From the NCBI RefSeq assembly GCF_003946885.1, contig NZ_RWKQ01000003.1:102742-145164 (forward strand): a stretch of 42,423 nucleotides of DNA, read 5' to 3'. Shown piece by piece: positions 2,916 to 42,345 of the stretch. Source of the stretch: Specibacter cremeus. GTDB taxonomy: Bacteria; Actinomycetota; Actinomycetes; Actinomycetales; Micrococcaceae. Both the position numbers and the translations under genes were made by a program. The notes under the pieces are model-generated. The model searched no databases, was not told where the DNA came from, and worked only from the letters and a program-made list of their open reading frames with translations. How positions within the stretch are numbered: position 1 is the stretch's first letter; every line of letters begins with the position of its first letter.

Positions 2916-4424
2916 CTACCCCTCGACGCCGAGCGTCTTGAGGATCAGTTCGCGTACGCGGCCGGGGTCGGCCTGGCCCTTCGTGACCTTCATGACCCCG
3001 CCGACGATCGCGCCGATGGCCTGGAGCTTGCCGCCGCGGATCTTCTCAGCCACGTCCGGCTGGGCGGCCAGGGCCGTGTCGATCGCGGCCTGCAGCGCGC
3101 CGTCGTCGGACACGACGGCCAGGCCGCGCGCATCGACGACCTCGGCCGGGCCGCCCTCGCCGGCGAGCACGCCGTCGAGCACCTCGCGGGCCAGTTTGTC
3201 GTTGATCGCCCCGGAGGCGATGAGCCTGTCGAGTTCGACGACGACGGCGGGCGTGACACCCAGCGCGGCGGGGTCGACGTCGGCCAGCTTGGCGCGGCGG
3301 GCGATCTCGCCCATCCACCACTTGCGGGCGACGGCGGGGGTGGCACCCGCGGCGACGGTCTCCTCGATCTCGCCCATGACGCCGGCGTTGACGACGTCGC
3401 GGAACTCCAGGTCCGTGTAACCCCAGTCGGCCTGCAGGCGCTTGCGGCGCTCGGCCGGCGGCTCGGGCAGGCGGGCGCGCAGCTCCTCGACCCATTCGGG
3501 GGTGGAGACGATCGGCACCAGGTCCGGTTCCGGGAAGTAGCGGTAGTCGTCGGCGTCGGACTTGGGCCGCCCGGACGTCGTGGACTTCGTGTCCTCGTGC
3601 CAGTGCCGCGTCTCCTGCACCACCGACTCGCCCGCGTCCAAAATGGCGGCGTGGCGCTGGATCTCGAACCGGACGGCGTGCTCGATGGCGCGCAGCGAGT
3701 TCACGTTCTTGGTCTCAGAACGCAAGCCGAACTTTTCCCGCCCGTACGGGCGCAGCGAGACGTTGGCGTCGCAGCGGACGTTGCCGCGCTCCATGCGGGC
3801 CTCGGAAACACCCAGGTTCTTCACGATCTCGCGGACCGCGGCCACATACGCCTTGGCCAGCTCGGGGGCGCGCGAGCCGGCACCCTCGATCGGCTTGGTG
3901 ACGATCTCCACGAGTGGCACGCCGGCCCGGTTGTAGTCGACCAGGGAGAAGTCGGCGCCCTGGATGCGCCCGGCCGCGCCGCCCATGTGGGTCAGCTTGC
4001 CGGCGTCCTCCTCCATGTGGGCGCGCTCGATCTCCACACGGAACACCGTCCCGTCCTCCAGTTCCACGTCGAGGTACCCGTCGTACGCGATCGGGTCCTC
4101 GTACTGGGACGTCTGGAAGTTCTTCGGCGTGTCCGGGTAGAAGTACTGCTTGCGCGCGAACGTGCAGTGCTCGGCGATCTTGCAGTTCAGCGCCAGCCCG
4201 ATCAGGATCGACGACTCGACGGCCTTGCGGTTCACCACGGGCAGCACGCCGGGCAGGCCCAGGTCCACTTCGTTGACGTTCGTGTTCGGCTCGTCGCCGA
4301 ACACGTTCGGGGCGGAGGAGAACATCTTGGTGGCGGTGTTCAGCTCCACGTGGACCTCGAAGCCGAGGACCGGGTCGTACTTGGCCATGGCCTCGTCGAA
4401 GCCCAGGATCGTGTCACCGCTCAT
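2916..4424 (-). CDS. gatB: Asp-tRNA(Asn)/Glu-tRNA(Gln) amidotransferase subunit B
   Basis: The 502-residue GatB subunit binds and phosphorylates the misacylated tRNA and receives ammonia from GatA. Visible landmarks are YDPVLGFEVHVELNT near residue 16, GLPGVLPVVN, the metal-site region ARKQYFYPDTPKNFQ, GRPKSDADDYRYFPEPDLVP in the middle, and a helical/tail domain rich in K and L at the C-terminus (VMKVTKGQADPG). An upstream in-frame extension to 4541 is rejected because ATG 4424 has a perfect AAGGAGG site (4438-4432) and overlaps the gatA stop by one base. It ends at TAG 2918-2916. It forms an operon with gatC and gatA. The ribosome site lies just past the repeat that encodes the gatA tail. 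Confidence 0.97.
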   Translation of the reverse strand: MSGDTILGFDEAMAKYDPVLGFEVHVELNTATKMFSSAPNVFGDEPNTNVNEVDLGLPGVLPVVNRKAVESSILIGLALNCKIAEHCTFARKQYFYPDTPKNFQTSQYEDPIAYDGYLDVELEDGTVFRVEIERAHMEEDAGKLTHMGGAAGRIQGADFSLVDYNRAGVPLVEIVTKPIEGAGSRAPELAKAYVAAVREIVKNLGVSEARMERGNVRCDANVSLRPYGREKFGLRSETKNVNSLRAIEHAVRFEIQRHAAILDAGESVVQETRHWHEDTKSTTSGRPKSDADDYRYFPEPDLVPIVSTPEWVEELRARLPEPPAERRKRLQADWGYTDLEFRDVVNAGVMGEIEETVAAGATPAVARKWWMGEIARRAKLADVDPAALGVTPAVVVELDRLIASGAINDKLAREVLDGVLAGEGGPAEVVDARGLAVVSDDGALQAAIDTALAAQPDVAEKIRGGKLQAIGAIVGGVMKVTKGQADPGRVRELILKTLGVEG

Positions 4425-28987: not shown

Positions 28988-30610
28988 TCAGTTCGAATGG
29001 CGCACGGCTTGCAGCATGTCCTCGGCGGCGCGGCTCTGCTCGCGGATGTGCAGGAGCGTCGGCCGGTCGCTGTCGAGGGCCGACTTGATCGCCCCGGTCA
29101 GGTCCGCGGTGGACTCCACCCGGACGCCGTGGCACCCCAGGGATTCGGCGAGGGCCGCGAAGTCCGGATGCCCGAGCGCAACGGCGTGGACGGGTTCGTT
29201 GCGGTCGGCCATCTCGTTGCGGATCTCGCCGTACCCGCCATTGTCGACGACGACGATCGGCAAGGCGATGCCCAATTCGGCGGCGGTGGCGAGTTCGGCG
29301 ATCGTGAACATGATGCCGCCGTCGCCCTGCAGCACCAGGACGGGTGCGTCCGGGGAGCCGACCTTGGCGCCGATGCCCGCCGGCAGCCCAAATCCGAGGG
29401 TGCCCACTCCGGTCGGGTACAGGAACGCGTTGGGCCGGTACAGCGGCAGGTTTGACAGCGCGCCGTAGTAGCAGGCCATCGCGCTGTCGCCGGCGACGAT
29501 CGCGTCGCGGGGCAGTGCCTCGGCGATCGCGCCCACGATGTCCAGCCACGGCGCGCCCTCGGTTTGCGCGTCGGCCTGGATCTTCACGCGCCAGGCGGCG
29601 GCGCGTGCGGCGCCGTCGACCGTCACCCCGCCGAGAAGCGGGAGGAGTGAATCCAGCACGGTCGCGGCGTCGCCAACCAGCCCCTGCGTGGGCACGGCAT
29701 TCGTGTTGATGGCGGCCGCGTCGATGTCGATGCGGACCAGTGTGCCGTCAAACGCGGGCCGGCCGATCCACCAGTCCGACGGGGCGAGCTCGGTGCCAAT
29801 GGCCAGCACGCAATCGCTGTCGGCCACGGCGTCGAGCACGCTGGGGTGTTGCACACCGGCGCCAAGCGCCAACGCATGGTCCTCGGGGAAAACGCCCTTG
29901 CCGTTGGTCGTGGCCAGGACCGGGGCGCCAAGGGCTTCGGCGACCGCCCTGACCTGGTGGGCGGCGCGCGAGGCACCGCCGCCCACGATGATGAGCGGCC
30001 TCGCCGCCGCTCTGAGGACGTCAGCGGCCTCGGCGAGCACCGTGGCCGGGGCGTTGCAGACGCCCGCCGGGACAGGCCCGACGAGGACGACGTGAGCCGA
30101 CTCATCGAGGAGGTCCAGCGGAATCTCCAGATGCACCGGACGGGGGCGCCCCGTCGCCATTGCGGCGAACGCCTGGGCAACCGCCAAGGGGATTTCCTCG
30201 ACGCTGGTGACGCGATGGCTGTAGGCGACCACCGAGGCCATTGCGGCCCCCTGATCCTTGATCTCGTGGAGCAGTCCGTTCCCGCGACCCGGATGGCGCA
30301 ACGGCATGCCCGGGGAGATGAACAGCACCGGAACCGAATCCGAATACGCCTGGGCGGCGGCCGCGGCGGCATTCAGGATCGCCGGGCCCGTGGTGGTCAG
30401 CACGACCCCGGGACGGCCGGTCGAGCGGGCAAAGCCGTCGGCGGCATAGCCTGCGCCTTGTTCGTGTCGCGGCGAGACATGGGTGATGCCGTACTTCGAC
30501 AGTGCCGCGTACACCGCAAGGTTGTGGGTGCCCGGGATGCCGAACACCGTGTCGACACCGTGCGCCGCCAACGCCGCGACCAGCGCTTCGCCTCCGGTCA
30601 GCGTATTCAT
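28988..30610 (-). CDS. ThDP-dependent enzyme, 2-oxoacid decarboxylase/acetolactate synthase-like
   Basis: 540 residues in the three-domain Pyr-central-PP fold. The cofactor-activating Glu50 (PRHEQGAGYAADGFAR) and the ThDP/Mg motif GDGGIMF with a downstream VVVDNGGYGEIRN are intact. The PRHEQGAG and LHEIKDQ stretches resemble 5-guanidino-2-oxopentanoate decarboxylase (AruI) more than true acetolactate synthases. 2-Hydroxyacyl-CoA lyase is another possible activity in this fold. The start ATG 30610 overlaps the SDR stop (ATGA), with AAAGG eight bases upstream. In this operon I infer decarboxylation of a 2-oxo acid formed from an amino acid, or carbon-carbon cleavage of a CoA ester; the substrate is open. 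Confidence 0.85.
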   Translation of the reverse strand: MNTLTGGEALVAALAAHGVDTVFGIPGTHNLAVYAALSKYGITHVSPRHEQGAGYAADGFARSTGRPGVVLTTTGPAILNAAAAAAQAYSDSVPVLFISPGMPLRHPGRGNGLLHEIKDQGAAMASVVAYSHRVTSVEEIPLAVAQAFAAMATGRPRPVHLEIPLDLLDESAHVVLVGPVPAGVCNAPATVLAEAADVLRAAARPLIIVGGGASRAAHQVRAVAEALGAPVLATTNGKGVFPEDHALALGAGVQHPSVLDAVADSDCVLAIGTELAPSDWWIGRPAFDGTLVRIDIDAAAINTNAVPTQGLVGDAATVLDSLLPLLGGVTVDGAARAAAWRVKIQADAQTEGAPWLDIVGAIAEALPRDAIVAGDSAMACYYGALSNLPLYRPNAFLYPTGVGTLGFGLPAGIGAKVGSPDAPVLVLQGDGGIMFTIAELATAAELGIALPIVVVDNGGYGEIRNEMADRNEPVHAVALGHPDFAALAESLGCHGVRVESTADLTGAIKSALDSDRPTLLHIREQSRAAEDMLQAVRHSN

Positions 30611-31424: not shown

Positions 31425-33503
31425 TCATGCTTTGACCGCGACCGCCGCTACGACGAGCGCATCGACGGCGAGGGCGCCCTCGGGCGCCACGCGGATGGGG
31501 TTGAGTTCAAGTTCGGTGATGTGGCCGTTGGCCGCGATGGCTTCAGACACGGAGACGACGACGGCCGCGAGGGCTTCGATGTCGGTGGCCGGCTTGCCGC
31601 GCCAGCCATTGAGCAGCGGAAGGCATTTGAGCCGCCCGATCATGCCCAGTGCCGTTGCGTGATCGACCGGTGCCAGTTCGACGCAGACGTCACGGTGCAG
31701 CTCGGTCTCGGTGCCGCCCGCGCCGACTGCGATCACGGGCCCGAAGTCCCGGTCCAGCCGGCCGCCGACCAGCACCTCAATCGCGTTGGCCCGCTCGTCC
31801 TGTTCCTCGACAACATAGTTGCCGTCGCCGAGGCGCGCGTGCATGTCGTCGTAGGCGGCCGCGAGCTGTTCAAGCGTGTCGAGGCCGAGCTTGACACCAC
31901 CATGCTCGCTCTTGTGCTCAAGCCACCCCGCCTTGAGGACGACCGGAAAGGTCAATTGCGTGGCGGCATGCTCCAGGTCGCCTCTGCACGTGACCAGCAG
32001 TCCGGCCGGCGTGGCGATGCCGAGATCGGCAAGCAGGCTCCGGGCGGCCCAGTAGCCCGGCTCCGAAACGGTCAAGTCGGCATCGGGAACCTTCAGGTGC
32101 CGGCCCGGCCAGGCCGCCAGGTCCGCTGCCTGGGCCAACGCCTTCATCGCGAACTCGATGCCGTGGAACGCGGGAATCCCGTGGTCCCACATCCGGCCGA
32201 CGGCCGGCGAGGCGGCACTCATGCTGTGCACCAGGAGCGGCAGGTGCGAGGCGTGGACGATCTCCCCCATGCGGTCAACCACCGCCAGTTCGGCATCCTC
32301 GATCACAGGATTGTCTTCGCCGTAGCAACCCAGGTAGCCGGACATCACGACGGCGTCGACCTCGCCGGAGGCGAGGAGCCGTTCGTTCAGGTCGGCATAC
32401 ACCTGCAGGTTCGCTTCGCCGGCACCGGCCAGGTCGACGGGGTTGGAAACCGCCGCGCCGTCCGGCAGGATTTGGGCGAGGCTCATCTGCAGGCCCGACG
32501 AAAACACCGGGGTGGACAATCCCGATGCCGCGGCGGCATCGGCGGCAATGCCACCTTGGCCCCCGCTGTCGCTGACGACGGCGACCCGTCGGCCGCCCGG
32601 TTTCGGGGCAACGCTCAGATACCGGGCCACATTGACCAGTTCGGTGGGCGTCGATACTCGAATGGCGCCGGCCGCGCGGCAGGCCGCATCGATGGTGTCC
32701 AGCGCCGAAGTCAACGACCCGGTGTGCGATTGGGCGAGCCGCTGGCTTCCCTCACTGGCACCCGTGGTCAGGATGATCGTCTGTTTGCCGGTCCCGGCCA
32801 GGGTGCGCAGCGTCCCCACCAGGTCTGCGCCACCGGCAAAGCTTTCGAGGTAGAGGGCTATCATCCGTGTCGCATCATGGTCGGCCAGGTCATCGAGCAG
32901 TTCCGCGGCGCCGACGTCGAGTTGGTTGCCCACCGAGATGAAGCGCGATACGCCAAGTCCGGCGCCGGCGCCAAGGTTGGCGATCTCCGAACCGAGTTGG
33001 CCGCTCTGCGAAACGATCGCCAGCGGTCCCGGGGTGAAGTGGCCCCAGGCGAGCTGGAGTTCGGCGGAACTGTCATAAAGCCCGAGGCTGTTGGGGCCGA
33101 TGATGCGCGCGCCGGCCGCACGGATCAATTCGCCGATGCGCGCTTCGTTGGGCACGCCCGCGGTGATGCCCAGGAATGCCTTGACCCCCTTGGCCAGCGC
33201 CTCCACGACGACGTCTTCGATGAATTGCGGCGGGACGCAGAGGACGAGCAGGTCGGGCGCTTCGGGCAGGGCCGAAACGCTCGCGAAGGCAGCCTCCCCC
33301 TGCACCGTCCCGGCTGAGCGGTTGACGAAATAGACGGAACGGCGGTGCTTTCCACCCAAGGCGCCGCGCGCCAGCCAATATCCCCACTTGGACCGGTCGT
33401 CGGTTGCCCCGACAACCGCAACGGATGCGGGATTGCGGAACGGATCGAGCGAGGACGCCAACCCCACACCGGGCAGGCCGGTCGCTTCGGATCTCATCGC
33501 CAT
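31425..33503 (-). CDS. NDP-forming acyl-CoA synthetase (acetate--CoA ligase family)
   Basis: A 692-residue single-chain enzyme with the CoA-binding domain first (LDPFRNPASVAVVGATDD), then succinyl-CoA-synthetase-like domains with the phospho-histidine in LAQSHTGSL (about 280), and a C-terminal ATP-grasp part (FPVVLKAGWLEHKSEHGGVKLG; GGRLDRDFGPVIAVGAGG; ITELELNPIRV). It would make an acyl-CoA from a free acid with NTP hydrolysis to NDP. Start ATG 33503 has GGAG nine bases upstream; ATG 33518 is an alternative. It is the first gene of the eight-gene operon, downstream of a strong-looking promoter with a candidate operator. The acid substrate is unknown. Confidence 0.9.
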   Translation of the reverse strand: MAMRSEATGLPGVGLASSLDPFRNPASVAVVGATDDRSKWGYWLARGALGGKHRRSVYFVNRSAGTVQGEAAFASVSALPEAPDLLVLCVPPQFIEDVVVEALAKGVKAFLGITAGVPNEARIGELIRAAGARIIGPNSLGLYDSSAELQLAWGHFTPGPLAIVSQSGQLGSEIANLGAGAGLGVSRFISVGNQLDVGAAELLDDLADHDATRMIALYLESFAGGADLVGTLRTLAGTGKQTIILTTGASEGSQRLAQSHTGSLTSALDTIDAACRAAGAIRVSTPTELVNVARYLSVAPKPGGRRVAVVSDSGGQGGIAADAAAASGLSTPVFSSGLQMSLAQILPDGAAVSNPVDLAGAGEANLQVYADLNERLLASGEVDAVVMSGYLGCYGEDNPVIEDAELAVVDRMGEIVHASHLPLLVHSMSAASPAVGRMWDHGIPAFHGIEFAMKALAQAADLAAWPGRHLKVPDADLTVSEPGYWAARSLLADLGIATPAGLLVTCRGDLEHAATQLTFPVVLKAGWLEHKSEHGGVKLGLDTLEQLAAAYDDMHARLGDGNYVVEEQDERANAIEVLVGGRLDRDFGPVIAVGAGGTETELHRDVCVELAPVDHATALGMIGRLKCLPLLNGWRGKPATDIEALAAVVVSVSEAIAANGHITELELNPIRVAPEGALAVDALVVAAVAVKA

Positions 33504-33521
33504 CGGACAACACTCCATTTT

Positions 33522-33539
33522 TAACTAATGCGTCAGTTA
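33522..33539. promoter_or_regulatory. Candidate TetR operator s1 for the acyl-CoA operon
   Basis: TAACTAATGCGTCAGTTA is an imperfect palindrome with TAACT/AGTTA arms. It starts about two bases past the predicted transcription start and before the acyl-CoA synthetase gene. On the minus strand it reads TAACTGACGCATTAGTTA and aligns without gaps with sites s2, s3 and s4. Confidence 0.6.
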
Positions 33540-33547
33540 TTAATGAA

Positions 33548-33576
33548 ACTGTGCCTGTGCCAGCCCGGAATGTCAA
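33548..33576 (-). promoter_or_regulatory. Promoter of the acyl-CoA synthetase operon
   Basis: Minus strand: TTGACA (33576-33571), a 17-base spacer and CACAGT (33553-33548). The -35 box is a perfect consensus. The same TTGACA-17-CACAGT layout occurs at 40273-40301 in front of the ABC binding-protein gene. Confidence 0.6.
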
Positions 33577-33585
33577 GCAGTTTTT

Positions 33586-34179
33586 CTAACGGATCGCCAC
33601 GGAGTCGATGAATGCATTGCAGGTGGCCTGCATCCTCTCGACCGTCATGTGTTTCGAGCCGATGAGCACCTGGATCGCCAGCCCGTCGAGCATGCCGACG
33701 AAGGCGTCGGCAAAGGCCACGGGGTCGCCCACGGCGATGAGTCCCAGGTCAATTCCAGCCTTCGTCGTCTCAATCACGGTCTGTCGCCAGTCGCCGTAGT
33801 AGACCTCGTTGACTTCACCCAGGGACCTGTCCCCCACGGCCGAGACCCAGAACTCGAGCCACACGCGCCACGACCGGACAGCGGCCGCGGAGATCGGCAG
33901 ATATCCGTCCGCCAACTTGCGAAGGCGCGCGACCGGGTCGTCATCCTCCTCGAAATGGCCATCTCGTCGCCCCAGCGATTGGTCGTACTGGAAGCGGAAG
34001 GCGTCCTTGAGCAGGTCTTCCTTGGAATCGAAGTAGTAGTGCACGGTTCCGGTGCTGTAGCCGGCCACTTTGGCCACATCGGCGATGCGCAGGTCACGGA
34101 AGCCACGTTCGGCAACCACCTCACAGGTCGCCTCCAGGATCTCGCGTCGTCGTTGGGCAACTGCGCTCGGACGGGCCAT
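33586..34179 (-). CDS. TetR-family regulator 1
   Basis: A 197-residue repressor-like protein. The N-terminal HTH is RREILEATCEVVAERGFRDL then IADVAKVAGYSTGTVHYYF (recognition helix about 40-50). The C-terminal ligand domain resembles the BetI-like TetR_C group (GMLDGLAIQVLIGSKHMTVERM). Start ATG 34179 has AAAGG nine bases upstream. It lies just upstream of the acyl-CoA operon on the same strand and has candidate operator s2 in its own promoter, pointing to autoregulation. Its recognition helix is nearly identical to that of the XRE-TetR protein, so both may bind the same sites. The ligand may be an acyl-CoA or the amine substrate; this is inference. Confidence 0.92.
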   Translation of the reverse strand: MARPSAVAQRRREILEATCEVVAERGFRDLRIADVAKVAGYSTGTVHYYFDSKEDLLKDAFRFQYDQSLGRRDGHFEEDDDPVARLRKLADGYLPISAAAVRSWRVWLEFWVSAVGDRSLGEVNEVYYGDWRQTVIETTKAGIDLGLIAVGDPVAFADAFVGMLDGLAIQVLIGSKHMTVERMQATCNAFIDSVAIR

Positions 34180-34214
34180 GCATCAACGCCTTTCAGTGGT
34201 CAGGTCAACATTTC

Positions 34215-34232
34215 TGACTATAGCGTCAATTA
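34215..34232. promoter_or_regulatory. Candidate TetR operator s2
   Basis: TGACTATAGCGTCAATTA (minus strand TAATTGACGCTATAGTCA) is closely similar to s1 and overlaps a TATAGT -10 box for tetR1 on the minus strand. It lies between tetR1 and the XRE-TetR gene. Confidence 0.5.
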
Positions 34233-34248
34233 AGGTCGTCGCGCAGGG

Positions 34249-35118
34249 CTACCGCAACGTGATGTGGGGCTCAAAGGCATCAAGCAGGAGCTCTCGCATC
34301 CGGTCAACCGTCATGTCACCCGATCCTGTGACGACCTGGATGGCGAGCCCGTCCACCATGCCGGTGAATCGCCCGGCAAGGGCGTCGACATCGACACCCG
34401 CGGCCAAGCCCTCGCCCTGCCCACGTGTCAACAAATTCACGACGATGGCACGCCACCGCCCATACACAAGCCTGTGTTCCTGCCGCAACTCCGGCTGGAG
34501 CATCGCCTCGTTCCAGGACTGGATCCACACCGACCACTCATCAAGGTCCGCCTCGCTGGCGGGCAATTGTACCTCGATCAAGCGACGCAGCATCTCGACG
34601 GTGTTGCCTGACCGGCGGAACTCGTCGTCCAGTTGCGCATGAAACCGGTCCGCATAGAGTCGGAGGGCGGCACGCAACGTCTCGTCCTTCGACGGAAAGT
34701 GATAATGGACGGTTCCCGTGCTGGTGCCGCACTCCCGGGCGATATCGGCAACGCGCACGTTGTGGAATCCCTTGCGCGCAATGAGGCGGGCCGTGGCCTC
34801 AAGGATCTGGACCCGCCGTTCTTCGGCGTCCAGGCTCTCGGCCCGCCGACGCGAGGACACGCCGGCCGCCGCGGCGATGCGCACGGGGGCGTGGCCGGCC
34901 CCCGTGCGCAAATAATCGATGGGAACCCTGCCCACCCGGGCGATGGCCTTGAGCTCATGGTCCTGCAGCCGCCGCACGCCGCGCAACGCCTTCGAAAGGG
35001 CCGTCGCATCCATCCCGATCCTGGCGGCGAACTCCCGTTGGGTCAGGTCCGCGGACAGGACGACGTTCCGCACACGGCCGACCACCGGGTCGGGGGGTTC
35101 CTGTTTCGACTCGGTCAT
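34249..35118 (-). CDS. XRE-TetR fusion transcriptional regulator
   Basis: 289 residues with two DNA-binding domains. Residues about 14-72 are an XRE/Cro-type HTH (VLSADLTQREFAARIGMDAT, then ALSKALRGVRRL). After a linker (about 73-100) comes a TetR HTH (RRVQILEATARLIARKGFHN; IARECGTSTGTVHYHF at about 126-141) and a TetR ligand domain (GMVDGLAIQVVTGSGDMTVDRM). The last part is paralogous to TetR1. Start ATG 35118 is preceded by CATAAT at ten bases; ATG 35130 is an alternative. An extension to 35289 shadows the amine oxidase gene. It lies 25 bp after the amine oxidase gene and may be co-transcribed with it. This domain pairing is uncommon. Confidence 0.9.
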   Translation of the reverse strand: MTESKQEPPDPVVGRVRNVVLSADLTQREFAARIGMDATALSKALRGVRRLQDHELKAIARVGRVPIDYLRTGAGHAPVRIAAAAGVSSRRRAESLDAEERRVQILEATARLIARKGFHNVRVADIARECGTSTGTVHYHFPSKDETLRAALRLYADRFHAQLDDEFRRSGNTVEMLRRLIEVQLPASEADLDEWSVWIQSWNEAMLQPELRQEHRLVYGRWRAIVVNLLTRGQGEGLAAGVDVDALAGRFTGMVDGLAIQVVTGSGDMTVDRMRELLLDAFEPHITLR

Positions 35119-35143
35119 GGCGGAGATCATTATGCTGGAGAGA

Positions 35144-36562
35144 TCACCGGGCGTCAACCATGGCGGCCAGGACCTCGTCCGCGGCGCGGTAGCCCGACCC
35201 GATCGCACCATCGATATAGCCGTTCCATCGGCCGGCGGTCTCCGTTCCGGCCCAGTGGATGACGCCGCTCGGCGTGCGCCAGCCGTCACGGGCGTAGCCC
35301 GTCCAGCCGCCCGGGGTCACATACGCCTCATAGCCGCCTTGCGCAAACTCATCGTACGGCCAGATCTTCTCGGTGTAGTCCACGGGGTCGGTCGCCTGCG
35401 GCCCCGCGATGGCTGCCAGGGTTTCCAGGACGGCGGCCCGGCGTTCGGCGGCCGGGCGCTCGGCCCAATCACTCACCCGGTCCCCGTAGACGAAACCCAC
35501 GAGGATGCCCATCGAGGCATCGGCCGGCGAGTTGTCGAACACGACCCCGACCGGTCCGTCGTCGTACACCGTGGCGATACCTGAGAGCCCGGCCGCCCGC
35601 CAGAATGGTTGCGTGTAGACGGCATGGACCTTCGCGACCCGCCCCATCGGACTGTGCGCCAGCCAGCCACGCCTGCTGATCGACAGGGTGGGCGTGAAGG
35701 AAATCCCGGACGTCGCCGGCGGCGGCAGGGCAACGACCACCCGCCGGGCCCGGATGACTCCCGAACCCGTGCGGACCATTGCTCCCTGCTCGTCCTGTTC
35801 CACCGCTTCGACCGGCGTATTCAGGCACAGACGGTCGCCCAGTTCCACGGCGAGAGCCGTTGCCGGTGCCGCCGCACCGCCGTGGAAGCGGCTGTCCTGG
35901 GCGCAATCGCGCGTCTCCATCAACTGCTCATAGCCGTCGGCCGCCGCGATGTAGAACACGACGTGGAACAGCGAGATTTCCCGGGGCTCGCACGACCACA
36001 CGCCCTGGATCGCCAGTGCGAGCCGGCGTATGGCATCCTCGTCGCCGGTCTGGGCGCGGAAGAAGGATTCGGCGGTTTGACTGTCCCACAGCTCGAAGTC
36101 CGGGGTCAGCCACGGCTGGTCCAGGTCCACGGATTTCGCCATGGCGTCAAGGAGGGTGGTGACGCGGCAATAGTCATCGATTCCGGGGCCCGCCTCCGGT
36201 GCGGCACCGTCATACGCCACGCGTGACCCGTCCCGCCACACCTCAATGTGACGCCCTTCCTCCCAGCTGGGGAACGTCTCGCAACCGAAACGCTCGGCCA
36301 GGGCAAGCAGGTTTTTCTGCGTCGGCCCCACCCACTGGCCGCCCTGATCCACGACGGCGCCGCCTTCGCGCACCTCACTGAGCACGCGCCCGCCGACCCG
36401 CCCGGAGGCCTCGAGGACCACGAAGTCGATTCCCTCGTCCTTCAGCCGAAGGGCCGCGGCCAGCCCGGCATAACCCGCGCCCACGACGACGACGTCAACC
36501 TGGCCATCCATCTCGCCGTCGGTGATCCCCTGTTTCTGACCTGTCCACATGCCTCCAAGCAT
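35144..36562 (-). CDS. Flavin-containing amine oxidase (MAO-like)
   Basis: A 472-residue FAD amine oxidase that oxidises an amine to an aldehyde with release of ammonia and H2O2. The Rossmann motif is VVVVGAGYAGLAAALRL (about 25-41), followed by VLEASGRVGGRVLS and DQGGQWVGPTQ. The C-terminal FAD block is IHWAGTETAGRWNGYIDGAI (about 436-455). These are as in bacterial putrescine/tyramine oxidases. No signal peptide is seen. The start is uncertain: ATG 36562 is listed, ATG 36511 (MDGQVDVVVVG) is the alternative. It is divergent from an APC permease, with operator-like sites s3 and s4 between. The likely role is first oxidation of the imported amine; a true amino acid oxidase cannot be excluded. 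Confidence 0.9.
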   Translation of the reverse strand: MLGGMWTGQKQGITDGEMDGQVDVVVVGAGYAGLAAALRLKDEGIDFVVLEASGRVGGRVLSEVREGGAVVDQGGQWVGPTQKNLLALAERFGCETFPSWEEGRHIEVWRDGSRVAYDGAAPEAGPGIDDYCRVTTLLDAMAKSVDLDQPWLTPDFELWDSQTAESFFRAQTGDEDAIRRLALAIQGVWSCEPREISLFHVVFYIAAADGYEQLMETRDCAQDSRFHGGAAAPATALAVELGDRLCLNTPVEAVEQDEQGAMVRTGSGVIRARRVVVALPPPATSGISFTPTLSISRRGWLAHSPMGRVAKVHAVYTQPFWRAAGLSGIATVYDDGPVGVVFDNSPADASMGILVGFVYGDRVSDWAERPAAERRAAVLETLAAIAGPQATDPVDYTEKIWPYDEFAQGGYEAYVTPGGWTGYARDGWRTPSGVIHWAGTETAGRWNGYIDGAIGSGYRAADEVLAAMVDAR

Positions 36563-36572
36563 GCAGCAAGAC

Positions 36573-36590
36573 TGAACAATGCGTCAATAG
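36573..36590. promoter_or_regulatory. Candidate TetR operator s3
   Basis: TGAACAATGCGTCAATAG shares the AATGCGTCA core with s1. It lies about 10 bp upstream of the amine oxidase start. On the minus strand it reads CTATTGACGCATTGTTCA. Confidence 0.5.
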
Positions 36591-36614
36591 TTGCGATTTG
36601 GACGATCGAAACTC

Positions 36615-36643
36615 TTGACAACCATCACCGCATCAGCAACATT
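36615..36643 (+). promoter_or_regulatory. Promoter of the APC permease gene
   Basis: TTGACA (36615-36620), a 17-base spacer and AACATT (36638-36643). The -10 is weak, but the layout matches the two other TTGACA-17 promoters of this island. Confidence 0.45.
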
Positions 36644-36660
36644 GATTATTCAGTCAATTG
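36643..36660. promoter_or_regulatory. Candidate TetR operator s4
   Basis: TGATTATTCAGTCAATTG (minus strand CAATTGACTGAATAATCA) has ATTGA/TCAAT arms and aligns with s1-s3. It overlaps the end of the predicted -10 box of the permease promoter. Confidence 0.45.
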
Positions 36661-36704
36661 CGATTTGCGTCACAGTCGCGCCCATGGCAACCAAAGGAAT
36701 CCTC

Positions 36705-38282
36705 ATGGCATGGATCAGCAAATCAGAGTCGGTCCAGACCGAATCCCCAGATCTGCGCCCGGGTGGCAAGGGCCTGCGCCCGGGTGCGCTGGGCATGGTC
36801 GCCAGCGTCATTCTGGCCACGGCCTCCGCGGCGCCGGCCTATAGCCTCGCCGCCACCATTGCATTCGTCGTGGCCTTCGTCGGCGTCCAGGCCCCGGTCG
36901 TCGTCGCCCTGGCCTTCGTGCCGATCCTGTTCGTCGCGCTCGGGTATTCGGCGCTCAACCGGCGCGATCCCGACTGCGGCACGATCTTCACCTGGGGCAG
37001 CAAGATCTTGGGACCGAGAATAGGGTTCATGGCCGGATGGGCCATCATCGCCTCATTCGTCCTCGTCATGGGCAGTCTCGCCCAGGTGGCAGGTCAATAC
37101 GGCTTCTTGCTCTTCGGCGCCGACCGCATCGGGAACGACCCATCCAACCCGTGGGTGCTCCTCGTCGGGCTCAGCTGGATCGCTCTCATGTCGTGGGTCT
37201 GCTATCGGGGCATCGAGGTCGCCGCGGCCGTCCAACGTGTGCTGCTGTTCCTCGAGTTCGGCATGCTGGTGATCTTCTCGGTTGTCGCCTTGGTCCGAGT
37301 CTATGCCGGCAACGCCGGGACCGGCGCCTTGCAACCGCACATCTCCTGGCTCAATCCGTTCGCGATTTCATCGCCGAGCGCGTTCGTCAGCGGGATTGTC
37401 CTCATGCTCTTCATTTACTGGGGCTGGGAGACCTCCCTGACAGTCAGCGAGGAGACCGCCGACCGCAAACGGACCCCCGGACGGGCCGCCACGATTTCTA
37501 CATTTCTCCTGTTGGCGCTTTACCTCATCGCCACCGTCGCCACGATCGCCGTCGCCGGCATCGGCACGACGGGAAATGGTCTGGGCAACCCCGATAACTC
37601 CGGCAATGTCTTCGCGGCGCTTGGCGATGCCGTCTTCGGCACCAGCCCCATTGGATCGTTTTGTGCCCACCTGATGGTCCTGATGGTCTTGTCCTCGGCG
37701 GCCGCCTCAACCGAAACCACCATCCTGACGCTCGGCCGTACGATGCTTGCCATGGGCAGTTACGGCGCGCTCCCACGGGTGTTCGCGAAGGTCCATCCGA
37801 AATACGCCAGCCCCAAGGTCGGCACGATCGTGACGGGCGTCGCCGGGGCGCTGTTCTACATCGTGATGAACTTCCTGAGCGACGGACACGTCATCGGCGA
37901 CGCCGTTGCCGCCTGCGGGCTCATGATCGCGTTCTACTATGGGCTGACCGGACTGACCGCGGCGTGGCAGTATCGCCAGACACCCCGGCCCGAACGCGGC
38001 CACCCCTGGCTTCGCGCCGTATTCCCGGCCCTGGGCGGACTCATGCTTTTCACCGCCGGGATATGGAGCCTCATCAACGATTGGAACCCGGCCTCAAGCT
38101 ACACCTCGTGGACGCTGCCGTTCGCGCCACACTGGCACATCGGCGGCGTCTTCATCATCGGCGCCGGAGCCTTCGCCGTGGGAATCGTCGCCATGGTCGT
38201 CCTCAGCCGCCGGCAGCCCGAGTTCTTCCGCGGCAAGCTCGCCCAAACCGCAAGCCTCGACTCCCTGGACACCGCCGAATAG
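36705..38282 (+). CDS. APC-family amino acid/amine permease
   Basis: A 525-residue inner-membrane transporter with about 12 spans. It opens with a soluble stretch, then GALGMVASVILATASAAPAY (span 1, with the APC G-x-x-A turn) and continues through GPRIGFMAGWAIIASFVLVM and IYWGWETSLTVSEETADRKR (conserved E in the span 6-8 region). Start ATG 36705 has AAAGGA six bases upstream; ATG 36684 is an alternative. It is divergent from the amine oxidase, with three control elements between them, so it probably imports that enzyme's substrate. Substrate specificity cannot be read. Confidence 0.9.
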   Translation: MAWISKSESVQTESPDLRPGGKGLRPGALGMVASVILATASAAPAYSLAATIAFVVAFVGVQAPVVVALAFVPILFVALGYSALNRRDPDCGTIFTWGSKILGPRIGFMAGWAIIASFVLVMGSLAQVAGQYGFLLFGADRIGNDPSNPWVLLVGLSWIALMSWVCYRGIEVAAAVQRVLLFLEFGMLVIFSVVALVRVYAGNAGTGALQPHISWLNPFAISSPSAFVSGIVLMLFIYWGWETSLTVSEETADRKRTPGRAATISTFLLLALYLIATVATIAVAGIGTTGNGLGNPDNSGNVFAALGDAVFGTSPIGSFCAHLMVLMVLSSAAASTETTILTLGRTMLAMGSYGALPRVFAKVHPKYASPKVGTIVTGVAGALFYIVMNFLSDGHVIGDAVAACGLMIAFYYGLTGLTAAWQYRQTPRPERGHPWLRAVFPALGGLMLFTAGIWSLINDWNPASSYTSWTLPFAPHWHIGGVFIIGAGAFAVGIVAMVVLSRRQPEFFRGKLAQTASLDSLDTAE

Positions 38283-38298
38283 CCTGGGCCGACTGGCG

Positions 38299-39510
38299 TC
38301 ATGACCGACCGAAGCGGGTTTCAATCGCCTGCAGCTGGTCCGCCGTGAACGCCAAAGCCGCTTCCCGGAGTGTGGTTCCGTCCCGATCCGCCCGACGGAA
38401 CATGTCGGTGACGATGCGCCTCATCTCGGAACGAATCTTCGCCTCGGACTGGCCGTGGTCGGCATCGATGTCGCCAAACAGCATCCACCACCACCACGCG
38501 TTGGTTGCCGAGTTGGAGACGAAGTCCGGCACGACCCGTGTCCCGCGAGCACCCAGCAGGGCTTCGGCCTCCGGCAGCACCGGCATGTTCGCCGCCTCAA
38601 CCACAAGCGAGGCGGTGATCTGGGCCTGGTTCTCCGCAGTGATGCAATATGAGATCGCGGCCGGAATCAGGACGTCGGTCTCCACGGCCAGCCAGTCGTC
38701 TCGCGGCAGTTCGTTATCGTCGGGCCCCAGGCTCGACCGGTCGATCTCCCCGAAACCATTCCTCGACCTCAGCAGCATCTCGACGTCGAGGCCCTCGGGG
38801 TTGACGATGACCCCGTTGGCATCGGCGATTCCCACAACCAGCATGCCGGCCCGGGCCAGATAGCGGGCCGTCGCGCCGCCCATCGAACCAAAGCCCTGGA
38901 TGACGACTCGAGACCCGGCGACGGGCCGGCCCAATTCGTTGAGTGCGGTCAGTACCGATTCGGCGACACCCAGCCCGCCGACCAACTCGCCCAATCCAAC
39001 CCCGTCGACATCGATGCCGAAGGCCTTCTCCAACCGCTCAATCGCCTCATCCCGGTTCTCCAGCAACGGGTAGACGGCCTGAATCGAGCTCTGTAACCCG
39101 AGTTCGCCGATCACTTCGTCAATCAACTTTTGCTGCAGCCCGAGGTCCTCACCCATCGTCCAATGCGCCTGGAGCAGGGCGCTGATTCCTTGAACATAGC
39201 GCTTCAAGACGGCGCGCATCTCGGGATCGTGCGGGTCGCAGTCGATACCGCCCTTGGCGCCGCCCAGTGGCACATAGCGGTTTCCGGGCCGGTAGTGCAG
39301 GCTCTCCTTCAACGTCATGCCGGCGGCAAGACCCCGAACCTCGTCAAGGGTGCATCCCTTGCGCATGCGAAGCCCCCCGCTGCAGACGCCCCGAACAAGA
39401 CGATCGATGACGAGGAAGCCTTGCCGCCCGCTCTCGGGATCTGTCCAAATCACCTCGAGGAAAGGCGATGTCATGGTCTTCGTTGACTTCTCTTCAACTG
39501 CGATCGGCAT
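38299..39510 (-). CDS. Glu/Leu/Phe/Val-type amino acid dehydrogenase
   Basis: A 403-residue oxidative deaminase converting an amino acid to a 2-oxo acid plus ammonium with NAD(P)+. The catalytic Lys86 is in PLGGAKGGIDCDP; upstream GLRM-K-C and MTLKESLHY fit the substrate-binding region. The Rossmann domain has VIQGFGSMGGATARYLARAG (about 204-223) and EAANMPV. The N-terminal segment is shorter than in classic glutamate dehydrogenase, nearer to Leu/Phe dehydrogenases. Start ATG 39510 has AGGAG seven bases upstream. It has its own promoter (39584-39555) and operator s5. With the ThDP decarboxylase-like enzyme it could feed 2-oxo acids onward; it may alternatively assimilate released ammonia. Confidence 0.88.
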   Translation of the reverse strand: MPIAVEEKSTKTMTSPFLEVIWTDPESGRQGFLVIDRLVRGVCSGGLRMRKGCTLDEVRGLAAGMTLKESLHYRPGNRYVPLGGAKGGIDCDPHDPEMRAVLKRYVQGISALLQAHWTMGEDLGLQQKLIDEVIGELGLQSSIQAVYPLLENRDEAIERLEKAFGIDVDGVGLGELVGGLGVAESVLTALNELGRPVAGSRVVIQGFGSMGGATARYLARAGMLVVGIADANGVIVNPEGLDVEMLLRSRNGFGEIDRSSLGPDDNELPRDDWLAVETDVLIPAAISYCITAENQAQITASLVVEAANMPVLPEAEALLGARGTRVVPDFVSNSATNAWWWWMLFGDIDADHGQSEAKIRSEMRRIVTDMFRRADRDGTTLREAALAFTADQLQAIETRFGRS

Positions 39511-39539
39511 AGTGTCACTCCTGGCTCGCGTGCATTTTT

Positions 39540-39557
39540 ACTGAATCACGAGTCAGT
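39540..39557. promoter_or_regulatory. Candidate TetR operator s5
   Basis: ACTGAATCACGAGTCAGT has nearly perfect eight-base arms (ACTGAnTC / GAnTCAGT). It overlaps the -10 box of the dehydrogenase promoter and the tetR3 stop codon. It shares CGAGTCAG with s6 at 40312. Confidence 0.6.
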
Positions 39558-40209
39558 TTGCATTGGGCTCAAATGACTTGTCAAGAGGCAGGCTTCCCGC
39601 TTCCCGGCGGCCAAGTTCACCCGGATCGACACCAAGCTCCCAGGCGACCTGGCGGACCAGCCACCCCTGCAGAACGTCCCGCTTGAAGTCGTCCTTGTGC
39701 ACCACCATGCGCACGGCGAGCCCGTCGAGCATGGACGTGATCCGGGTTGCCGCGTCACGCGAGTCATCGACGCGAAAGACTCCTTGGACCACCCCTTCGT
39801 CGATCACGGCGGCGATCTCGTCGGTCCACCTGTCTTGCAGGTCGGAGAGGACCTTGCGCAGCGTCTTGTCCCGCATGGCGGTCGACCAGGCGTCAATCCA
39901 TATTTGCCAGCCCCTGGCTTGGCCTGTTGGCGCGTACCACTCAAGGGCCACCATCAAGCGGTCCGCCGGCGAGCGGGCTTCGTGCATGATTCGGCGCAAC
40001 TTCAACAGATCACGCTCGGCGGCATGCATCAACGCTTCGACGAGCAGGTTCTCCTTGGTCTCGAAGTGGTAGATGATCAGCGCCGCGCTGACATTCATGG
40101 CGGCGGCGACATCCGCGATTCGCATCGTCGACATGCCCTTTTCACGGATCTGCCGCAGGGTCTCCCCGAGCACTTCCACTCGCCGCGCCTGGGCATTCAT
40201 TCTCTTCAT
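39553..40209 (-). CDS. TetR-family regulator 3
   Basis: 218 residues. The HTH is RRVEVLGETLRQIREKG then RIADVAAAMNVSAALIIYHF, a recognition helix unlike those of the two other TetR proteins in the island. The ligand domain has WYAPTGQARGWQIWIDAW and SMLDGLAVRMVVHKDDFKRD, of the BetI-like group. Start ATG 40209 has TAGAGT seven bases upstream, so it may be leaderless; ATG 40200 and 40260 are alternatives. It lies between the dehydrogenase gene (operator s5) and the divergent ABC binding-protein gene (operator s6), the two sites most likely bound by it. Confidence 0.9.
   Translation of the reverse strand: MKRMNAQARRVEVLGETLRQIREKGMSTMRIADVAAAMNVSAALIIYHFETKENLLVEALMHAAERDLLKLRRIMHEARSPADRLMVALEWYAPTGQARGWQIWIDAWSTAMRDKTLRKVLSDLQDRWTDEIAAVIDEGVVQGVFRVDDSRDAATRITSMLDGLAVRMVVHKDDFKRDVLQGWLVRQVAWELGVDPGELGRREAGSLPLDKSFEPNAN
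39555..39584 (-). promoter_or_regulatory. Promoter of the amino acid dehydrogenase gene
   Basis: Minus strand: TTGACA (39584-39579), an 18-base spacer and CAAACT (39560-39555). It lies inside the 3' end of tetR3, with s5 directly downstream. Confidence 0.5.
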
Positions 40210-40272
40210 GAATGGCACTCTATCCCCCGCCGCCGGCCCAACGCCCCGGCGAAGAAACATTCTTTTCAGTGG

Positions 40273-40301
40273 TTGACATCGCCTGTGATGAACGGCACAG
40301 T
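40273..40301 (+). promoter_or_regulatory. Promoter of the ABC binding-protein gene
   Basis: TTGACA (40273-40278), a 17-base spacer and CACAGT (40296-40301), the same hexamers and spacing as at 33576-33548. Operator s6 starts 10 bases downstream of the -10. Confidence 0.6.
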
Positions 40302-40311
40302 CTACGTATTA

Positions 40312-40329
40312 CCTGTACGGCGAGTCAGG
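40312..40329. promoter_or_regulatory. Candidate TetR operator s6
   Basis: CCTGTACGGCGAGTCAGG has CCTG/CAGG outer arms and the CGAGTCAG core of s5. It lies in the 5' leader of the ABC transporter genes. Confidence 0.5.
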
Positions 40330-40372: not shown

Positions 40373-41236
40373 ATGGCTGGATACCGATTTGGGACCCTTG
40401 CGGCCGTTGCCGCCGTGGCAAGTCTCGCCCTGACCGGCTGCGGCGGTTCCAGTACGGCCGCCGGCGGCTACGGCTCGTGCGAAGTCACGGGCGCCAAGGG
40501 CTCGATGTCACTCAAGCCCGTCGTCGAGAACACGCTCACCGTCGAGACGAATCTGCCCTCACCAGGCTGGTGGAAGGGCTTGTCACCTGAAGGCATCGAC
40601 GGCGGCTATGAATACTGCCTTGCCGCCAACATCGCCTACCGGGCCGGACTTGACCATGTCAAGGTCGTCAATGCATCCTTCGACGCGCTGGTCGCGGGCC
40701 AGACCAAAGACTACGACATTGCCATGGCCCAGGTGTCCATCACGCCGGCCCGCGAAAAGGTCGTGCAGTTCTCCAAGCCGTACTTCGACTCCAACGTCGC
40801 GGTTCTGGTCAAGGAGGGTGCCGGCGTCACGGCGTCGAACATCGCGTCGAAGAAGCTGGGTGTGGCGCTTGGCACCACAGCCGTCGACTTCGTGAAGAAC
40901 AAGATCAATCCGGCGACCCCTGCCCGCGTGTTCCAGGACACCGACACGATGGTGACGGCCGTCGCCTCCGGGCAGATCGATGCGGCCATCCAGGACACGG
41001 CCACCCTGCTGGGTTTCGCCAAGGGATCCTCGGGGGCCATGACCGTCATCGGCCAATACAAGACCGGTGAACAATATGGTGCGATCTATCCCAAGGACTC
41101 GCCAAACGCGGGGGCCATGAACCAGGCCATCGACGCCATGTCCGCCGACGGAACCCTTGACAAGTTGTCGGCCACCTGGCTCGGCCCCACCCTCGGCGGA
41201 GATCCTGCCAAGGTTCCGGCGTTCCCGATCCCATGA
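40373..41236 (+). CDS. Amino-acid ABC transporter substrate-binding lipoprotein
   Basis: A 287-residue secreted lipoprotein with signal peptide 1-22 and lipobox LTGC at Cys23, anchoring it to the outer face of the membrane. The mature part is a type II periplasmic-binding fold of the SBP family 3: NTLTVETNLPSPGWW, GGYEYCLAANIAYRAG, VNASFDALVAGQTKDYDIAM, ITPAREKVVQFSKPYF, TMVTAVASGQIDAAIQD. Start ATG 40373 has GGAAG/AGGA upstream. Extra length in the early region (VTGAKGSMSLKPVVEN) is seen before the first strand. It overlaps the permease gene by four bases. It likely binds an amino acid or amine used by this island. Confidence 0.93.
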   Translation: MAGYRFGTLAAVAAVASLALTGCGGSSTAAGGYGSCEVTGAKGSMSLKPVVENTLTVETNLPSPGWWKGLSPEGIDGGYEYCLAANIAYRAGLDHVKVVNASFDALVAGQTKDYDIAMAQVSITPAREKVVQFSKPYFDSNVAVLVKEGAGVTASNIASKKLGVALGTTAVDFVKNKINPATPARVFQDTDTMVTAVASGQIDAAIQDTATLLGFAKGSSGAMTVIGQYKTGEQYGAIYPKDSPNAGAMNQAIDAMSADGTLDKLSATWLGPTLGGDPAKVPAFPIP

Positions 41237-42345
41237 GCAACTTGATTCCCACGCGCGAAGGAGGCCTGAAGTCATTCCGGCCTCCCCAAGCAGCCCCGCC
41301 TATCGTCATGCCGCTCGCCGCCTCGGCGGTCCTGGCGGTGGTGGCCACGGCGGCCGTTTCCTTCTACGCCCTCCAAGGCATGTATGCCCTCTCCGGTTCG
41401 TCCGGCATGCCCCTCATCGTGCTGTTCATCCTGGCGGGTGTGGCCGCGGTTACGCCGATCATTCCCGCCACCCGTGCCATCCGGGGCGCGACGCGGCGCA
41501 ATTCCCTCCTGCGGGACGGCCACATTGTCGAGGCCAGGCACGTCGCGGCCCTCGGGCGGGAGTCCGCGGCAACGAGCCTGGGCTATTCTGCCGCCGTGTT
41601 CGTGCTCGCCTGCATTCTGGTGTTCGTCGGCACGAACGACGGCGCCATCGCGCACACCTTCCTTCGCCCGTCGTTCATCACCCAAGCCTGGAGCGACGTG
41701 CTCAAGGCGTTCTGGGTGAACGTGCGGGTCGCCGTGGGCGCCGAAGTGCTTGTCTTGGTCCTGGGTCTCGCGATAGCCATCATGCGGATGCTTCCGGGCC
41801 GGGCAGGCCGGCCACTGCGTATGCTCGCGATCATGTACGCCGACGTGTTCCGGGCGATCCCCGGCATCATCGTCCTTTACCTGGTCGGGTTCGGTTTGTC
41901 ATTGGCCAAGGTCCCCGTCTTCAAGGACCTGCCGCCGATCTGGTTGGCCATTTTCGCGCTGACCCTCACCTACGGGGCCTACGTTGCCGAGGTGTACCGC
42001 GCCGGACTCGAATCCATTCACCGCAGCCAGTGGGCGGCGGCTCGTTCGCTCGGCCTGTCCTATCCGCAGGCCCTCCGGACCGTGATCGTTCCGCAGGCCG
42101 TACGCCGGGTGATCCCGCCGCTGCTGAACGATTTCATCGGCCTCCAGAAGGACACGGCCCTGATCGGCGTCATGGGAGTCATCGACGCATTCACCCAATC
42201 ACGGCTGGTTGCCTCGTCCGTTTTCAACCTGTCACCGGTAACCGTCGTTGCCATCATCTTTGTCCTGGCCACCATCCCGCAGTCACGCTTCGTCGACCGG
42301 ATGATCCAAAAGGACCAGGCCCGGCAGCGGGCCGGATCAAGCTAG
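41233..42345 (+). CDS. Amino-acid ABC transporter permease
   Basis: A 370-residue permease of the His/Glu/Gln/Arg/opine group. The N-terminal 150 residues hold two to three extra spans (VVATAAVSFYALQGM; VLFILAGVAAVTPII). The transport domain follows, with RAIPGIIVLYLVGFGL and the ATPase-contact EAA-type loop EVYRAGLESIHRSQWAAARS. ATG 41233 overlaps the binding-protein stop (ATGA). No ATPase subunit is encoded in the window, and the DNA after the stop codon looks like the end of an insertion sequence. The C-terminus (RMIQKDQARQRAGSS) looks complete. Confidence 0.92.
   Translation: MSNLIPTREGGLKSFRPPQAAPPIVMPLAASAVLAVVATAAVSFYALQGMYALSGSSGMPLIVLFILAGVAAVTPIIPATRAIRGATRRNSLLRDGHIVEARHVAALGRESAATSLGYSAAVFVLACILVFVGTNDGAIAHTFLRPSFITQAWSDVLKAFWVNVRVAVGAEVLVLVLGLAIAIMRMLPGRAGRPLRMLAIMYADVFRAIPGIIVLYLVGFGLSLAKVPVFKDLPPIWLAIFALTLTYGAYVAEVYRAGLESIHRSQWAAARSLGLSYPQALRTVIVPQAVRRVIPPLLNDFIGLQKDTALIGVMGVIDAFTQSRLVASSVFNLSPVTVVAIIFVLATIPQSRFVDRMIQKDQARQRAGSS

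Follow-up and report, generated by a model that had tools for sequence, protein, structure and literature searches.

What decides which of three paralogous repressors acts at which promoter when their genes lie within one stretch of DNA? The question is raised by a 42-kb region of Specibacter cremeus (42,423 nucleotides, C23:102742-145164, reaching the contig end; "the window" below), in which three BetI-like regulators of the TetR family, TetR1, XRE-TetR and TetR3, lie among catabolic and transport genes together with six 18-bp palindromes, s1 to s6, that are predicted operators. We compared the window with the 4.31-Mb genome to which it belongs (G000), with two congeners (G006 and G007), and with loci extracted from other genomes (L-numbers denote loci, G-numbers genomes). 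From these comparisons we consider it likely that the window encodes three BetI-like repressors, one of which, XRE-TetR, has two DNA-binding modules and a two-part operator.

Three groups of predicted operators

The window was scored with matrices built from sites outside it: 12 sites of TetR proteins lacking an XRE domain (of which two come from the window's own genome, contig C9, L048; an earlier version had six sites), 25 sites of XRE-TetRs in other genomes (leaving out L131, L132, L136, L144, L146, L147, and several degenerate right-hand sites), and four sites of TetR3 orthologues. All six palindromes described in the original prediction were located at their sites (Table 1), and the XRE-TetR matrix returned s4, s5, s1, s3, s2, and s6, in that order, as the six best positions of the 42 kb. 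When the matrices were compared, bearing in mind that scores from different matrices are only roughly comparable, s1 and s2 preferred the XRE-less matrix over the XRE-TetR matrix (26.0 versus 18.0 and 13.5 versus 9.8), while s3 and s4 showed the opposite preference (17.9 versus 6.1 and 20.0 versus 13.4), and s5 and s6 scored best with the TetR3 matrix (21.7 and 12.1). The sites seem to form three groups, with s1/s2 assigned to TetR1, s3/s4 to XRE-TetR, and s5/s6 to TetR3. Two operator classes had been proposed originally; s5/s6 indeed stood apart, with the difference between sites following the type of TetR, while the single class A for s1 to s4 was set aside because s1/s2 and s3/s4 prefer different matrices.

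Sites of these kinds recur in matching promoters of several lineages. A near-twin of s1, TAACTGACGCATCAGTCA, lies ahead of the acyl-CoA synthetase (ACS) gene in Streptacidiphilus (L065:9788), and for a TetR1 relative in Amycolatopsis (L064) there is a site at 4139, some 115 bp upstream of the start; the position of s2 upstream of TetR1 makes autoregulation probable. In G006 and G007, the promoters of the Glu/Leu/Phe/Val-type dehydrogenase (GDH) and of the solute-binding protein (SBP) keep TTGACA and the palindromes s5 and s6, and the SBP promoter keeps CACAGT as well. We regard s6 as secured because it is conserved in the two congeners, despite a matrix score within the range of chance.

Several results weigh against this reading. 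With 15 Markov-simulated windows as the null, the best chance scores were 16.8 (XRE-less), 19.6 (XRE-TetR), and 21.2 (TetR3), so that singly only s1 was clearly above chance, s4 and s5 were marginal, and s2, s3, and s6 were not above it. The TetR3 matrix placed s4 (14.3) and s3 (12.6) above s6 (12.1), and s5 also scored high with the other two matrices (17.5 and 18.8). A genome-wide motif search, proposed originally as a check, gave a divided answer. The class-A pattern, which was fitted to s1 to s3 and from which s4 departs by 3 mismatches, occurred nowhere else in the genome at 0 or 1 mismatch and twice at 2, and the pattern fitted to s5/s6 had no further match at up to 2 mismatches; at up to 3 mismatches, both were at the level of chance (class A, 19 versus 24 reversed controls; s5/s6, 8 versus 8). 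In the congeners, the TetR1 orthologues sit after an EamA-like gene (our own reading; L044:8962-10697) and not before ACS, and no clear class-A site was seen before that gene, which counts against a TetR1 operator kept within the genus.

The background-level counts at 3 mismatches, together with s2 and s6 being individually nonsignificant in the matrix scan, are what would be expected if the six palindromes were chance resemblances. We consider that very improbable, since their recurrence in matching promoters of several lineages largely contradicts it. The case for the six sites is carried by their joint ranking and their conservation.

The general palindrome TRACTGAYNNRTCAGTYA, allowing up to 2 mismatches, occurs at three places in the 4.31 Mb: s1, C69:8922, and C9:44848. 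C9:44848 is located upstream of a fourth gene for a BetI-like TetR (C9:44042-44865; L048:6004-6870; helix TGTIHY), which has two class-A sites and is divergent from a gene reading like an ABC solute-binding protein; relatives of this TetR in G022 and G013 keep two class-A-like sites. Class-A look-alikes were set aside at C28:41645 (2 mismatches), inside an integrase-like frame, and at C28:44591, just ahead of a ketosynthase-like gene; C18:34784 and C69:8922 also have 2 mismatches. Also set aside was TTTAACGCATCAGTTAAA at C26:1157-1174, ahead of an ArsR-like gene, seemingly a different palindrome whose likeness to s1 reflects chance or kinship.

A TTGCG word beside the XRE-TetR sites

All three regulators exceed the curated cut-offs for the DNA-binding domain TetR_N (PF00440; 52.2, 61.1, and 36.3 bits, cut-off 24) and the ligand domain TetR_C_6 (PF13977; 79.8, 90.6, and 74.0 bits, cut-off 27), and XRE-TetR has in addition an HTH_3 domain (PF01381) at residues 21-70 (37.0 bits, cut-off 23). 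The recognition helices had been read correctly in the original prediction: TGTVHY is common to TetR1 and XRE-TetR, and SAALIIYHF is found in TetR3. Its map from helix to site held insofar as the difference between sites follows the type of TetR. The helix alone seems not to set the map, since the word TTGCGATTT lies beside s3/s4 but not beside s1/s2, and since these two pairs are split by matrix preference; the XRE domain appears to add specificity.

TTGCGATTT occurs in the window in only two copies, the ones beside s3 and s4, where 0.14 are expected. Among sites in general, TTGCG or CGCAA was observed within 12 bp at 47 of 52 XRE-TetR-type sites, at none of 27 sites of XRE-less TetRs, and at 2.5% of random positions. 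The 52 sites comprise the two in the window, 26 in the 13 loci L053-L065, 22 before distant XRE-TetR genes (chosen by eye, with TTGCG disregarded as far as possible), and L157 and L172; without the latter two, which were reached via the XRE motif, the count is 45 of 50. The palindrome is weak or ambiguous at L131, L132, L136, L144, L146, and L147. In a tree of the regulators, an XRE-less group falls between two XRE clades (support 85/90); the association with TTGCG holds in both XRE clades, and the intervening group is without the element at 17 counted sites. Both kinds of site lie 2-3 kb apart in L064 and L065, and there too the TetR1-type sites are without TTGCG and the XRE-type sites have it. 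Alignment of the intergenic region between the APC-type permease (APC) and flavin amine oxidase (MAO) genes from 13 loci, using fragments cut on the APC -35 as anchor, showed counterparts of s3 and s4, the APC -35, and 2 to 5 CGCAA/TTGCG elements per locus.

These counts bear on the alternative that there are just two operator classes, with TetR1 and XRE-TetR cross-regulating s1 to s4 and the XRE domain having no part in site choice. The two proteins do share the TGTVHY helix, and the scores of s1 with the XRE-TetR matrix (18.0) and of s4 with the XRE-less matrix (13.4) make some cross-binding likely, but the tracking of the XRE domain by TTGCG and the different matrix preferences of s1/s2 and s3/s4 leave this alternative unlikely.

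Upstream of the 22 distant XRE-TetR genes, we noticed a palindrome, TTGCGAWNWTCGCNA, close before the start (exact in 19 of the 22), and 15 of these upstream regions contain a TGACT-N8-AGTCA palindrome in which 9 or all of the 10 bases match. An exact search for TTGCGAWNWTCGCNA in 23 genomes returned 27 places in 20 genomes, with zero matches for the reversed control. A search of 20 more genomes, none with a strong match to XRE-TetR, turned up 12 places spread over 10 genomes (one reversed-control match), of which L180 and L181 precede weaker XRE-TetRs and L186, a perfect copy looked up afterwards, precedes a full-length relative of the gene at L170. The L170 gene is an XRE-ImmA/IrrE-like gene of the S. 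cremeus genome itself (L170:1501-2622, from C68 around 7105); a perfect TTGCGAAGATCGCAA is found some 20 bp upstream of the start, and the XRE domains of its product and of XRE-TetR are related. The L170 and L186 genes share 44% identity over the whole length and 58% in the XRE part. Outside the defining loci, 4 of 20 TTGCGAWNWTCGCNA places precede genes of XRE-TetR's XRE subfamily.

Here, too, there are points on the other side. Of the 27 places, 19 are the defining loci, and only one of the other eight precedes an XRE gene (C68:7105, L170); L157 and L172 lie beside a BCCT-like gene, L153, L168, and L174 near an SBP-like gene, L161 in a long frame, and L150 in a probably coding stretch with several open frames. 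No XRE gene was seen near the nine remaining places of the 12. An exact TTGCGAWNWTCGCNA is absent from G683 and from two genomes of the distant clade, G657 and G734, although all three have XRE-TetRs, and the palindrome was present at none of the checked XRE-TetR loci of the MAO/APC clade. At s3 and s4, a full palindrome was sought and nothing beyond chance was found: the TTGCG words there are half-sites, the better of which has 2 mismatches to the palindrome, no better than chance in 42 kb. When the distance is relaxed to 25 bp, TTGCG/CGCAA is found at 49 of 52 XRE-type and at 1 of 21 XRE-less sites. Since close relatives contribute many of the 52 sites, the Fisher value of 2e-16 overstates the evidence. 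The distance from TTGCG to the TetR palindrome is not constant (about -1 to 9 bp), so simultaneous binding is a conjecture.

L157 and L172 each hold a TetR palindrome and TTGCGAAAATCGCCA beside the gene reading like a BCCT transporter, that is, second copies of the operator pair, with no XRE-TetR match within the 3 kb examined. L153, L168, and L174, from three genomes, have TTGCGATTATCGCAA near the gene reading like a solute-binding protein and are possibly a further XRE-TetR target.

Could TTGCGATTT instead belong to another regulator or to a promoter, with XRE-TetR using its TetR half alone at s3/s4 and its XRE half only at TTGCGAWNWTCGCNA ahead of XRE-TetR genes in other species? The full palindrome of the distant clade is found shortly upstream of the XRE-TetR start, at a place where TTGCGA could be a -35; the TetR palindrome is often another 50-150 bp away in the upstream direction, and the window is without the full palindrome. 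We nevertheless find this explanation doubtful, because TTGCG adjoins the TetR palindrome itself, at 2 bp in 11 of the 22 distant loci and at -1 to 4 bp in the MAO/APC loci.

Starting from the observed site positions, their conservation, the protein architecture, and the co-occurrence of TTGCG with the XRE domain, we hypothesize that the three BetI-like repressors would keep catabolic promoters closed as long as no amine-like or amino-acid-derived ligand is bound to the C-terminal domain. TetR1 would read TRACTGAYGCRTYAGTYA at s1, in front of the ACS operon, and at s2, in front of its own gene, and TetR3 would read ACTGAMTNNNNAKTCAGT at s5, for the dehydrogenase, and at s6, for the ABC transporter. 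XRE-TetR would govern the MAO and APC promoters, which are divergent, by means of two-part operators: the TetR dimer would occupy s3 and s4, both degenerate palindromes, and the XRE domains the adjoining TTGCGATTT elements, read as half-sites of the palindrome TTGCGAWNWTCGCAA; that both domains bind simultaneously is what we infer from this arrangement. In its fullest form, to which we give about an even chance or slightly better, XRE-TetR would be a bidentate ligand-responsive repressor in which two unrelated folds on one chain read TGACTNATNNNNMAGTCA and TTGCGAWNWTCGCAA as neighbouring words at divergent catabolic promoters; with an XRE word common to XRE-ImmA-like regulators of the same genome, the chimera could link amine catabolism with a second network.

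Gene layout, promoters, and two gene modules

From left to right, the genes are SDR, ACS, TetR1, XRE-TetR, and MAO on the minus strand, APC on the plus strand, GDH and TetR3 on the minus strand, and SBP and a permease on the plus strand.

Table 1. Genes, predicted operators, proposed half-sites, and promoters of the window.
Feature	Positions	Strand	Domains or basis
ACS, NDP-forming acyl-CoA synthetase	31425..33518	-	PF13549, PF13607, PF13380
TetR1, BetI-type TetR, helix STGTVHYYF	33586..34179	-	PF00440, PF13977
XRE-TetR, N-terminal XRE, TetR (helix STGTVHYHF), and BetI-type C-terminal domain	34249..35118	-	PF01381 21-70, PF00440 105-150, PF13977 175-281
MAO, flavin amine oxidase; true start may be further in	35144..36562	-	PF01593
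APC-type amino acid permease	36687..38282	+	PF13520
GDH, Glu/Leu/Phe/Val-type dehydrogenase	38299..39510	-	PF00208, PF02812
TetR3, BetI-type TetR, helix VSAALIIYHF	39553..40209	-	TetR_N and TetR_C_6, helix reading
SBP, ABC transporter solute-binding protein, family 3	40373..41236	+	PF00497
ABC transporter permease	41233..42345	+	PF00528
s1, TAACTGACGCATTAGTTA, TetR1-type predicted operator just past the ACS operon promoter	33522..33539	-	pattern, matrix
s2, TAATTGACGCTATAGTCA, predicted operator upstream of TetR1	34215..34232	-	pattern, matrix; weakest of the six
s3, TGACGCATTGTTCAGTCT, predicted operator over the probable MAO -35	36569..36586 (orthologue register; earlier register 36573-36590)	-	alignment, matrix
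s4, TGACTGAATAATCAATGT, predicted operator	36639..36656 (orthologue register; earlier register 36643-36660)	-	alignment, matrix
s5, ACTGACTCGTGATTCAGT, TetR3-type predicted operator	39540..39557	-	conserved in G006, G007
s6, CCTGTACGGCGAGTCAGG, TetR3-type predicted operator	40312..40329	+	conserved in G006, G007
TTGCGATTT, proposed XRE half-site, 4 bp from s3	36591..36599	+	motif search, alignment
TTGCGATTT, proposed XRE half-site, 1 bp from s4	36658..36666	+	motif search
ACS promoter, TTGACA-17-CACAGT	33548..33576	-	pattern search
APC promoter, TTGACA-17-AACATT	36615..36643	+	pattern search
GDH promoter, TTGACA-18-CAAACT	39555..39584	-	pattern search; TTGACA kept in G006, G007
SBP promoter, TTGACA-17-CACAGT	40273..40301	+	pattern search; TTGACA and CACAGT kept in G006, G007

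Four of these genes have one promoter design, as originally described: TTGACA, a spacer of 17-18 bp, and a weak -10. The pattern TTGACAN{17,18}MAMANT matched the window exactly four times, each time at one of these promoters, against a shuffle mean of 0.01, an expectation that is optimistic since the pattern was written post hoc from the same four promoters. TTGACA alone was not enriched in the window (13 matches, 9.19 expected), and promoter and terminator scans stayed at chance level. Of the 13 orthologous intergenic regions, all have the TTGAC of the APC promoter and 10 have the full TTGACA. Among the palindromes, s3 seems to overlap the MAO -35 instead of following a TTGACA promoter, and s2 has no TTGACA within 190 bp upstream.

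The genes do not share one history. GDH, TetR3, SBP, and the permease occur together in G006 and G007 at 68-81% identity, and in the 18 kb examined at each of these two loci there was no match to MAO, APC, ACS, or SDR; XRE-TetR was not found in either genome at E up to 1e-55. APC, MAO, and XRE-TetR are kept together in the 13 loci L053-L065 (Streptomyces, Streptacidiphilus, Catenulispora, and Amycolatopsis), all 13 of which have ACS nearby, in varying order, and in these loci, of 10-17 kb each, no place had GDH, TetR3, SBP, or the permease as its best match at 1e-8. The two gene modules do not travel together, so the island-wide regulon of the original prediction was given up: the sequence comparisons make the island a composite in which each of two modules has a history of its own. 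With the same limit of E up to 1e-55, XRE-TetR was found in 1 of the 295 genomes of its own family and in 3 of the 394 genomes of its class, the S. cremeus genome being counted in both. Its architecture is shared across genera, with 13 of 65 loci matching over both domains, and occurs in 19 of 298 genomes of family f24. In the tree set, the XRE region is present in 38 of 56 rows, the window protein included, and the history of the fusion needs three changes, one of them owing to the partial match L070.

As to the ligand, the TetR_C_6 domain and four tryptophans (W195, W198, W202, and W222) that are identical in all 17 aligned sequences suggest something amine-like. The neighbours, which include the oxidase, the permease, the acyl-CoA synthetase, SDR, a thiamine pyrophosphate (TPP) enzyme, an acyl-CoA dehydrogenase, electron transfer flavoprotein (ETF) subunits, and a thiolase, fit amine or amino-acid catabolism. 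The TPP enzyme (28988-30610) scores 503.8 against the NCBIfam cut-off of 500 for 5-guanidino-2-oxopentanoate decarboxylase, lies within a minus-strand run with the acyl-CoA dehydrogenase, ETF subunits, and thiolase, and may hint at arginine or related substrates. At the distant XRE-TetR loci L121 and L122, the only two such neighbourhoods read, we found an adjoining carnitine-dehydrogenase-like gene (our own reading), which would fit quaternary amines.

Comparison with known regulators

The three regulators resemble BetI-like TetRs in their TetR_N and TetR_C_6 domains, in their predicted palindromic operators near catabolic and transport promoters, and in the likely autoregulation; the E. coli BetI box has a similar T-R-A-Y-T-G-A half. 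They are not BetI proper: all three fall well below the equivalog cut-off of TIGR03384 (83.3, 81.9, and 66.3 against 201.3), and the family searches of the neighbouring genes named none of them betA or betB. XRE-TetR differs further from BetI by its second DNA-binding domain.

The XRE-TetR architecture is not new, because the Protein Data Bank (PDB) holds a full-length homologue, 4ICH (4ich_A), which aligns over residues 9-287 and has both the XRE and the TetR domain; 4KWA, 4JNN, and 4NEL match the TetR part. 4ICH is labelled merely "Transcriptional regulator"; we take it to be a Saccharomonospora viridis protein solved with choline-like ligands. Among open-licence PubMed Central (PMC) papers, we found none holding two of these four codes, nor, judged by title or abstract start among the matches listed, one on an XRE-TetR operator; as far as that search shows, the two-part operator and the three-way map are unreported. 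The map is testable for three paralogous repressors of one stretch and contains a built-in comparison, setting a TetR fold that has an XRE head against the same fold lacking one, and operators that include the XRE word against those that do not. From sequence alone, it further yields a predicted target for an XRE subfamily and suggests a function for the solved structure 4ICH.

The XRE-ImmA/IrrE-like regulators L170 and L186 share with XRE-TetR a related XRE domain and have TTGCGA-N3-TCGCAA about 20 bp before the start. Unlike XRE-TetR, they have no TetR domain, and the best TGACT-N8-AGTCA near their palindromes reaches 7 and 6 of 10 bases. Their ImmA/IrrE label is our own reading, from HELGH and HELAH, and L170 has no NCBIfam match at 1e-20. 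The XRE-less TetRs with a TGT[VI]HY helix from Mycobacterium, Tsukamurella, G000 (C9), G013, and G022 differ from XRE-TetR in the opposite way, having no XRE domain and, at the 17 counted sites, no TTGCG within 12 bp; their predicted operators, such as TGACTGATGCATCAGTTA, are nearly s1, and in Mycobacterium and Tsukamurella they adjoin relatives of SDR and ACS.

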